NCBI GenBank assembly: GCA_963669155.1
Contig: OZ022576.1
Coordinates: 25,603,335 to 25,667,334, forward strand
Reading direction: 5' to 3'
DNA length: 64,000 nucleotides
From: Arbacia lixula
Taxonomy: Eukaryota > Echinodermata > Echinoidea > Arbacioida > Arbaciidae
The notes under the pieces were generated by a model that had not been told where the DNA came from, searched no databases, and saw only the letters and a list, made by a program, of their open reading frames with translations. The position numbers and the translations under genes were made by a program. Position 1 is the stretch's first letter; each line of letters begins with the position of its first letter. Positions 14,801 through 16,160 of the stretch are shown piece after piece.

Positions 14801-16160
14801 GGAGTAATTAGTGATTAAATCACAAATCCTCAAATTGTGCATGCCGAACATTTTGAGTCATCAGTATGTGTAACAGTTTATAAAAACCTGCATGTGGTTT
14901 TGCAACTGAGTAGTCTTGCTCATTTAAGTGATCTTTATAGAAGTTATGTAGTTCTGTCATCGTCACTTTCTTTATTAAGATGCGAGTGACTTGCATTAAT
15001 TTGTATATCTATTGGATGCCATTATCATGTTTGATATATGTAATGACACTATCACATTTGATATGTATAATTTAATCATAATATTTTATATTTGTAATGT
15101 CATTCTCATATTTCATGTATGTTTTTTCATTATCATAATGTTATGCTAGTATTATCACTTCATGTCTGATATATGTATTCTAATCATATTTGATATGATT
15201 TATCATATCACGAATATTTGCAGAGATCCTAACTCCCCTGTCTCGTCGCCTGAGTACCCCCCGTGGCCTCGGTACACCCTCCCTGGTCAGGACTACAAGA
15301 AGCTATCGATAACCATGGAGAACGGCCAGGCAATGAGGAGTGATGCGTGTGCCTTCTGGTTGAACTATGTTCCAACTCTCTATATATATGGTAGGTTTTA
15401 TGTGTAATTCACCTTCCCTCCTTTACACTCACTTTATTCTCCTCCTCCTCCTCCTCCTCCTCCTCCTCTTTCTCCTCCTCCTCCTCCTCCTCCTCCTCCT
15501 CCTCCTCCTCCTCCTCCTCCTCCTCCTCCTCCTCCTCCTCCTCCCCCAGTACCGATCTACATGCAAGTATACTTAACACTACCGTACCTTATAAAGCCAT
15601 CATAAAGTTTGGATGCTCGCCATTCTCGTGTTTGAGGAATTTTCCACGTTGCATAAATATACTTAACATTGCCCCACGGTGCACCGCGCAATGCATGACT
15701 GCACTAATACACAGTCCTGTCTCATAATGATGCATGTGCTTTCATTGGAAAGCCCGTTTGATGGTAAACAATGAAACCCTATCTGTTATGGTTATGGTTA
15801 TGCAATCCTGAGGAGGGTAAGGTTTTGAACCAAGCAGCTGTTACTTGTGTTTTTTGGAAAACATCTCAATCCACATAGCTGCTATGTATCTAGAAGATAA
15901 TAGGGATCTAGTGACTAGGGTAATGATGCAGGGCCCTTACAGAAAGCAGCTTCTCACTGACGAATTTACCCTGGGTAAATAAGACAATATAATTACATGT
16001 AGTAGTAATATCATTATCATTATCATGCCCAGACTTGCCGGGGGATGAGCTTTATCGGGACTGGCAGGAGGAGTACGTGGATTGGAGAGACGTGCACATG
16101 GCCGAGTGGGAACAGACCTTCCAGGAGTACCAAGATGATAGCCGTTGTGATGCTCCATGA
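8826..16160 (+). CDS. Secreted carboxylesterase/cholinesterase-family protein, complete (gene B, 602 aa)
   Basis: Nine exons: 8826-9185, 9642-9804, 10555-10632, 11093-11211, 11704-11877, 12279-12638, 13563-13822, 15224-15390 and 16033-16160; all junctions are GT-AG and total 603 codons. Residues 1-29 form a signal peptide. The triad is complete: Ser215 in GESAGAAS, Glu345 in GTNEDEG and His463 in GAGHGEDL; the oxyanion motif is HGGGY (131-135). All three conserved intrachain disulfide pairs have candidates: C98-C109, C270-C283 and C422-C547. The first Cys loop has only 10 residues and no Trp, whereas acetylcholinesterases have a longer loop carrying the choline-binding Trp, so acetylcholine is an unlikely substrate. 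The last exon resembles the cholinesterase T-peptide and ends in a free Cys599, which suggests oligomerisation. The product should be an active secreted esterase of unknown substrate. I am sure of the family and most splice sites; the exon 4 acceptor (11093 rather than 11090) was chosen for a gapless match to the family. Confidence 0.9.
9805..10554. repeat. Gene B intron 2 with purine (GAA/GGA) tract
   Basis: Intron dominated at 9896-10195 by an almost pure purine strand of AAG, GGA and AAGAAC repeats. Long translations through it are poly-Lys/Arg or poly-Phe/Leu artefacts. Confidence 0.85.
11212..11703. other. Gene B intron 4 with short inverted-repeat element
   Basis: Contains at about 11357-11472 a roughly 115-bp element whose ends are partial inverted repeats (GGGCCCTGTCTTATAAA at the left, AAGACGGGGC at the right) with internal TTACGATTG repeats. 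This resembles short non-autonomous repeats common in marine invertebrate genomes. Confidence 0.55.
11878..12278. repeat. Gene B intron 5 with CT-rich microsatellite
   Basis: A (CT)n-rich pyrimidine tract fills about 11955-12130. No other feature is seen. Confidence 0.85.
12639..13562. other. Gene B intron 6
   Basis: Holds a stretch at about 12835-12935 (CTGTCTATAGTGGTCACTT, then GAGGTTTGACTGTA) like one end of the element at 63543-63751, and an interrupted poly-C run at about 13482-13512 that precedes the exon 7 acceptor. No coding exon is visible. Confidence 0.5.
13823..15223. other. Gene B intron 7 with interspersed repeat copy B
   Basis: 1.4-kb intron. At about 14700-14840 it carries, in reverse orientation, the repeat also found at 6853-7040 and 29905-30045. 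An AT-rich stretch at 15000-15170 repeats variants of TATTTGATATATGTAAT. The open frame at 13888-14274 shows no domain or splice context. Confidence 0.6.
15391..16032. repeat. Gene B intron 8 with (CTC)n array
   Basis: A (CTC)n trinucleotide array runs from about 15440 to 15545. The remainder has no recognisable feature. Confidence 0.85.
16033..16160 (+). CDS. Gene B exon 9: tetramerisation-tail (WAT)-like C-terminus
   Basis: Encodes residues 561-602. Three tryptophans occur at a near heptad spacing (W-x6-W-x7-W), then 12 residues later a cysteine three residues from the stop (SRCDAP). The acetylcholinesterase T-peptide has W-x6-W-x6-W and then 12 residues to its C-terminal Cys, and shares the WxxxFxxY pattern (here WEQTFQEYQ). 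The exon is joined in frame to exon 8 through a split Asp codon. TGA is at 16158-16160. Confidence 0.8.

Follow-up and report, generated by a model that had tools for sequence, protein, structure and literature searches.

The 64-kb window analysed here (the whole stretch of DNA, C1:25603335-25667334 of a 607-Mb genome assembly) contains an esterase gene, hereafter gene A. We propose, with a probability of about 0.8, that gene A encodes a secreted, probably active carboxylesterase of the cholinesterase branch that carries the T-peptide of the cholinesterases as a tail, lacks the loop that holds the choline-binding Trp86, would form disulphide-linked dimers and tetramers on a proline-rich peptide, and is one member of a gene family. 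The occurrence of a family of short-loop esterases with the same tail suggests that this tail is not tied to the breaking down of a nerve signal.

The nine exons of gene A lie on the forward strand and, spliced at GT-AG junctions throughout, yield one open frame of 602 amino acids. Exon 1 (8826..9185) encodes an N-terminus that resembles a signal peptide by eye, and the Cys loop. This loop (Cys98 to Cys109, 9117..9152) is a shortened omega loop with only 10 residues between the cysteines and no Trp among them, as a first-pass annotation of this DNA had stated and as the translation bears out; in human AChE the loop has 26 residues, Trp86 included. Exon 2 (9642..9804) provides the oxyanion hole motif HGGG and is followed by exon 3 (10555..10632). 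The nucleophile elbow GESAG is found in exon 4 (11093..11211), with Ser215 at 11134-11136. Exon 5 (11704..11877) precedes exon 6 (12279..12638), which holds the catalytic Glu345 (12417-12419), and exon 7 (13563..13822), which holds the catalytic His463 (13695-13697). The catalytic domain ends in exon 8 (15224..15390), and the next intron, of phase 1, is placed 13.33 codons past the conserved Cys547. Exon 9 (16033..16160, stop included) encodes residues 561-602, a tail of 42 residues of the T-peptide (WAT) type. The join of exon 8 to exon 9 is a prediction, in phase, and the resulting nine-exon model agrees with the earlier claim that the last exon is part of the esterase gene. No AATAAA was found on the forward strand from 13856 to 18954 of the window.

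Residues 30-550 match the COesterase family (PF00135) with 447 bits against a Pfam cut-off of 27, placing the protein in that family. As expected of a cholinesterase, the predicted protein has the Ser215-Glu345-His463 triad and the oxyanion glycines of HGGG. The choline-binding Trp86 is absent from its omega loop, and Leu, Leu, Arg, and Glu stand at the positions of Tyr337, Phe338, Tyr341, and Tyr449, respectively. Here and below, numbers like those in Trp86 and Tyr449 denote the choline-site positions.

The tail has the hallmarks of a WAT domain. Its three tryptophans (Trp571, Trp578, and Trp586), located in a predicted helix, are spaced by 7 and then 8 residues. They are followed by a WxxxFxxY motif (Phe590, Tyr593) and by a Cys near the C-terminus (Cys599), with 12 residues between Trp586 and Cys599, like in AChE. 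Apart from the helix, all of this had been noted before from the last exon and holds in the spliced translation. Another feature of WAT domains, a last exon of their own starting at the boundary of the catalytic domain, is also displayed by gene A. A comparison of residues 561-602 with the Pfam profile AChE_tetra (PF08674) had been proposed as a check, and a match was obtained in part: no other family was listed when the tail was searched by itself at E up to 1, but the score (11.6 bits, E 0.25) lies under the cut-off of 25. With the full-length protein, no AChE_tetra match was listed in Pfam at E up to 1. Since the tail falls under the Pfam cut-off, we base the claim of homology on the related tails and on hhalign, not on the curated threshold.

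When the profile of the four tails from the 25.6 Mb gene group was aligned through hhalign to that of five cholinesterase tails (two of the same genome and three of vertebrates), the probability was 95.6 and the E-value 1.2e-8. All 20 aligned tails of the genome matched AChE_tetra at E up to 1, the best with 1.9e-9. The local alignment of the gene A tail to the human T-peptide scored 69, against a mean of 24 for shuffled tails, and 0 of 20,000 shuffles reached 69. The actual scores were reached by 1 of 20,000 shuffles for the Torpedo peptide and by 9 of 20,000 for BChE; the labels human, Torpedo, and BChE are what we take these PDB chains to be. The tail also ranked above all other open stretches of at least 25 amino acids in the window (1,593 in total) when compared to the human T-peptide, the runner-up scoring 44. 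Its top sequence match in the PDB was the AChE WAT peptide 1VZJ (rank 1 of 5, E 0.035), a match that is weak by itself, and a full-length phmmer search matched residues 60-600, which take in the tail, with an AChE chain of full length. Collectively, these sequence comparisons confirm the predicted exon 9 as a homologue of the cholinesterase T-peptide. AlphaFold2, given 20 tails in the alignment, modelled a single helix over tail residues 3-36 with a mean pLDDT of 87.4. Foldseek returned no matches for this model, which is unsurprising for a single helix. The hydrophobic moment at 95-105 degrees was reached by 3,258 of 5,000 shuffles of the gene A tail and by 1,111 of 5,000 shuffles of the human tail, so that it set neither tail apart from its shuffles.

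A tailed non-cholinergic esterase had been considered unusual in the first-pass annotation. Gene A does appear to be such an esterase, but it is not a lone one: the genome holds at least 22 tail exons, of which the letters of 21 were read, belonging to two true cholinesterases and to at least 20 other places, with the Cys loop read in 12 of the latter. Genome searches score the best candidates only, hence these counts are lower bounds. The search with PF08674 (E up to 10) returned 20 places, 10 of them over the cut-off; 17 were accepted as tail exons and the three weakest (E 2.4 to 9.7) were left out of the count. Five known tails are missed by this profile, namely all four from the 25.6 Mb group, gene A included, and one on C13 that was found with the tail of a neighbour as query. 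The gene A tail searched against the 607-Mb genome (E up to 10) gave 14 places, 13 of which are tail exons with letters read, while the 14th is the one on C13, beside esterase exons. Both true cholinesterases were recovered by this search, with E-values of 0.24 and 0.37. In three fetched regions (345,335 bases), 13 tails occupied ranks 1-13 among 6,742 open stretches of at least 30 amino acids, with scores from 114 to 60, and rank 14 scored 44.

Seven more tail places on C1, between 0.12 and 10.08 Mb, are known from the tail letters only. Upstream of six of these there is a same-strand COesterase match at a distance of no more than 10 kb; for the tail at 0.1437 Mb, no such match was listed within that distance. 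A further COesterase group occurs at C19:5.02-5.09 Mb, for which no AChE_tetra match with an E-value of 10 or less was listed. The tail seems to be confined to some esterase groups, although PF08674 misses five known tails. One scan of genome contigs found no bacterial relatives.

The tail exon is conserved in the paralogues of gene A within this genome. Its three Trp and its Tyr do not vary in any of the 22 rows aligned, of which this genome contributes 20 (the tail of h5 was omitted from the tail alignments, its peptide being identical to that of h4). A spacing of 8 between the second and third Trp was found in 8 of the 21 tails read. Two of these belong to the true cholinesterases, four to genes in the 25.6 Mb group, and the other two to h8 and h9; the remaining 13 tails have a spacing of 7. 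The extra residue previously pointed out as a real difference is indeed present, but it does not distinguish gene A from the cholinesterases of this genome, both of which have it, and it is ruled out as the mark of a different domain. In the tails with spacing 8, the aromatic residues recur at about 3.67 rather than 3.5 residues per turn, which suggests a straighter bundle than that of vertebrates.

From these sequence features, we infer how the product of gene A is secreted, assembled, partnered, localised, and what it acts upon. The signal-like N-terminus, predicted by eye, would lead to secretion. The tail would fold into a single aromatic helix of about 34 residues, and two subunits would be cross-linked through Cys599. 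Four tails would then wrap around a proline-rich peptide, forming a tetramer in the manner of the PRAD-WAT complex described in a passage of PMC5943944, and this partner would attach the tetramer to the matrix or to a membrane. The substrate is probably not a choline ester. In AChE and BChE, the T-peptide is responsible for tetramers and for their anchoring by PRiMA or ColQ at synapses, according to passages of PMC3045457 and PMC5943944.

A query with the C-terminus of ColQ gave two adjacent matches on C20, at about 13.52 Mb (55% and 54% identical, E 5.6e-5 and 7.4e-7), both covering a Cys-rich repeat. Repeats of this kind are common in other proteins. A proline pattern had 546 matches in the genome, fewer than its reversed control (744). 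As for PRIMA1, 0 of 99 matches in the genome were over the cut-off, and many were in frames with stops. This last result is in line with an alternative in which the tail serves another form of assembly, for instance by association of the subunits with one another or in oligomers mixed with the true cholinesterases, instead of binding to a dedicated proline-rich anchor. The fact that the tail and its spacing are common to the true cholinesterases points in the same direction. Furthermore, BChE tetramers contain a lamellipodin peptide, according to a passage of PMC5943944, hence a dedicated anchor need not exist. We regard this alternative as rather unlikely, and assembly on a proline-rich peptide is the reading that we retain. 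On a broader scale, we tentatively put forward, at somewhat less than an even chance, that in this lineage the T-peptide serves an esterase superfamily as a general docking tag, with one set of proline-rich anchors presenting cholinesterases alongside many non-cholinergic esterases, possibly in mixed tetramers. If so, the placement of cholinesterases would be just one function of a device that is older or wider in use.

The true cholinesterases of the genome are a different kind of gene from the short-loop esterases. AChE15 (C15:15904611-15910517), in which the loop was read as 28 letters, retains the choline-site Trp and is 45% identical to human AChE, and ChE22 (C15, within 22359600-22363400) retains this Trp in a GSEQWN motif and is 46% identical. 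A pattern search for the Trp86 motif across the genome had AChE15 as its only match; ChE22 was missed because Phe stands where the pattern demands Tyr. The short-loop esterases form two groups on C1, at about 10.13-10.23 Mb and 25.577-25.619 Mb. Thirteen esterases were modelled well enough to align, 12 of them with a tail, the splice models of the paralogues being derived by similarity and containing small artefacts. The catalytic Ser and His are present in 13/13 and the Glu in 12/13, h9 having Asp instead; among the 12 with a tail, Ser and His are found in all and Glu in 11. All 13 keep the six disulphide cysteines and have Glu at the Tyr449 position. None has an equivalent of Trp86, and their Cys loops have from 10 to 23 residues against 26, with Trp elsewhere in the loop in g2, h8, and h9. 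Glu202 is replaced in h1, h6, h8, and h9, and the terminal Cys is present in 11 of the 12 tails, h1 being the one without it.

Some members of the 10.1 Mb group deviate from the common plan. Variant nucleophile elbows occur in the tailed esterases h6 (GVSSG, C1:10196313-10196431), h8 (GQSGG, 10216106-10216224), and h9 (GQSAG, 10223444-10223562), and the members with a variant elbow, or with the Asp triad in the case of h9, may have altered activity. In the same group, h7 (C1:10201524-10210046) could be modelled only as far as its middle, carries a stop within one of the stretches that matched, and is perhaps a pseudogene; this broken, tail-less model was excluded from the alignment, the table, and the tree.

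Could gene A be a divergent true cholinesterase that binds choline via other aromatic residues? Its catalytic domain is closer to human AChE (281 bits) than to CES1 (228 bits), and the Trp found elsewhere in the loop of some paralogues would be compatible with this idea. Nevertheless, both AChE15 and ChE22 are nearer to human AChE than gene A, which is only 34% identical to it, and gene A lacks both Trp86 and the aromatic residues of the other four choline-site positions. In addition, a tree that takes human CES1 as its root sets the esterases apart as a group of their own (support 92) beside the cholinesterases (support 100). We consider this explanation improbable. The non-cholinergic reading of gene A is supported, and its product would lack choline activity and presumably form tetramers. 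With CES1 as the single outgroup, the tree is compatible with either a loss of the choline site in the esterases or its gain in the cholinesterases.

The tail intron provided insights into the history of these genes. It is of phase 1 in all 12 modelled tailed esterases and in AChE15. Its distance past the conserved Cys is 14.33 codons in AChE15 and, by the output of the script, in 10 of the 12 esterases, against 13.33 in gene A; in h6 the script was anchored on a later Cys, and counting by eye from the homologous Cys gives 14.33 as well. That tail, phase, and intron place are all shared makes it more likely that these predicted genes descend from an ancestor with a tail. According to a passage of PMC3045457, Combes et al. 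saw that C-terminal splice sites are conserved in the AChE of insects, nematodes, and vertebrates and read this as pointing to exon shuffling, which is a possible source of the tail here too.

Head to head with gene A lies gene B, a divergent esterase paralogue on the reverse strand (643..5044; exons 5044-4649, 2007-1845, and 720-643, with the remainder past the left edge of the window) that has a Cys loop of 21 residues. No tail exon was found for gene B up to the next gene, and its frame after exon 8 reads REFDLI and then stops, making it a natural tail-less relative for comparison. The lack of a tail exon in gene B, the lack of a terminal Cys in h1, and the score of the gene A tail under the Pfam cut-off would all be expected if the tail exon were inherited but played no part in assembly and were drifting to loss. 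The pattern of substitutions argues against it. In the tail, gene A differs from g3 at 12.5 of 15.5 synonymous sites, which is saturated, against 9.5 of 89.5 non-synonymous sites, and between the tails of g1 and g2, dN/dS is 0.06. The tails of gene A and g3 are also more alike (75%, 27/36) than their catalytic domains (63%, 312/499), and the invariance of the three Trp and the Tyr in 22/22 rows fits poorly with drift. We hold this scenario to be very improbable. For h8 and h9, synonymous sites of the tail are saturated, and the pairs L035/L036, L038/L039, and L040/L041 displayed 2, 1, and 1 non-synonymous and no synonymous changes, numbers too small to inform. Finally, although exon 8 read through would give a short end (GRFYV, then stop), the idea that exon 9 is open by chance and was wrongly joined to gene A is ruled out by the shuffles (0/20,000), the open-stretch ranks (1-13 for the tails), the 14 places found by the tail in its own genome, and the phase-1 intron at a conserved place.

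Other features of the window were also identified. Three open stretches on the reverse strand (22272-26299) match the 56-kDa selenium-binding protein family (SBP56), indicating a split gene downstream of gene A. An exon of an EF-hand protein occurs at 55844-56122 on the same strand. Between 43352 and 43669, there are two imperfect 42-bp tandem arrays, flanked by 16-bp repeats, whose units appear by eye to be reverse complements of each other.

Each part of gene A is already known. Their combination, multiplied into a family, was not found in the open-access literature searched: among the matches listed, there was no description of a T-tailed non-cholinergic esterase, most subscription papers lying outside this literature. 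A lone hit to the name of the Pfam family was spurious, the word there denoting a ligand. Such proteins may already be present in the public annotation of related animals. The closest known systems are the T subunits of AChE and BChE (WAT, PF08674, 1VZJ), which have in common with gene A a homologous tail, the 12-residue gap that separates the third Trp from the Cys, the six disulphide cysteines, and the Ser-Glu-His triad. In AChE15, the tail is further preceded by a phase-1 intron whose place is nearly identical. Gene A differs from AChE and BChE in its short Cys loop without Trp86, in the change of Tyr449 into Glu, in the replacement of the aromatics at 337, 338, and 341, and in that genes of its kind occur in tandem groups.

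CES1 (PF00135) shares with gene A the fold family, the catalytic residues, and a Cys loop without Trp. Yet its chain ends without a T-peptide, and gene A is nearer to AChE. Neuroligins and the ChEL domain of thyroglobulin are cases in which a cholinesterase-like fold is used in assembly outside cholinergic function. To our knowledge, neither has a T-peptide. A passage of PMC5943944 covers part of this ground and describes neuroligin as having no gorge. Unlike these proteins, gene A retains both the catalytic residues and the tail. Esterases that look active and carry the tail without the choline-site Trp would represent an assembly device separated from cholinergic function. Our findings make it possible to test whether non-cholinergic esterases and cholinesterases have common anchors, whether they mix, and whether the choline site arose later than the tail.
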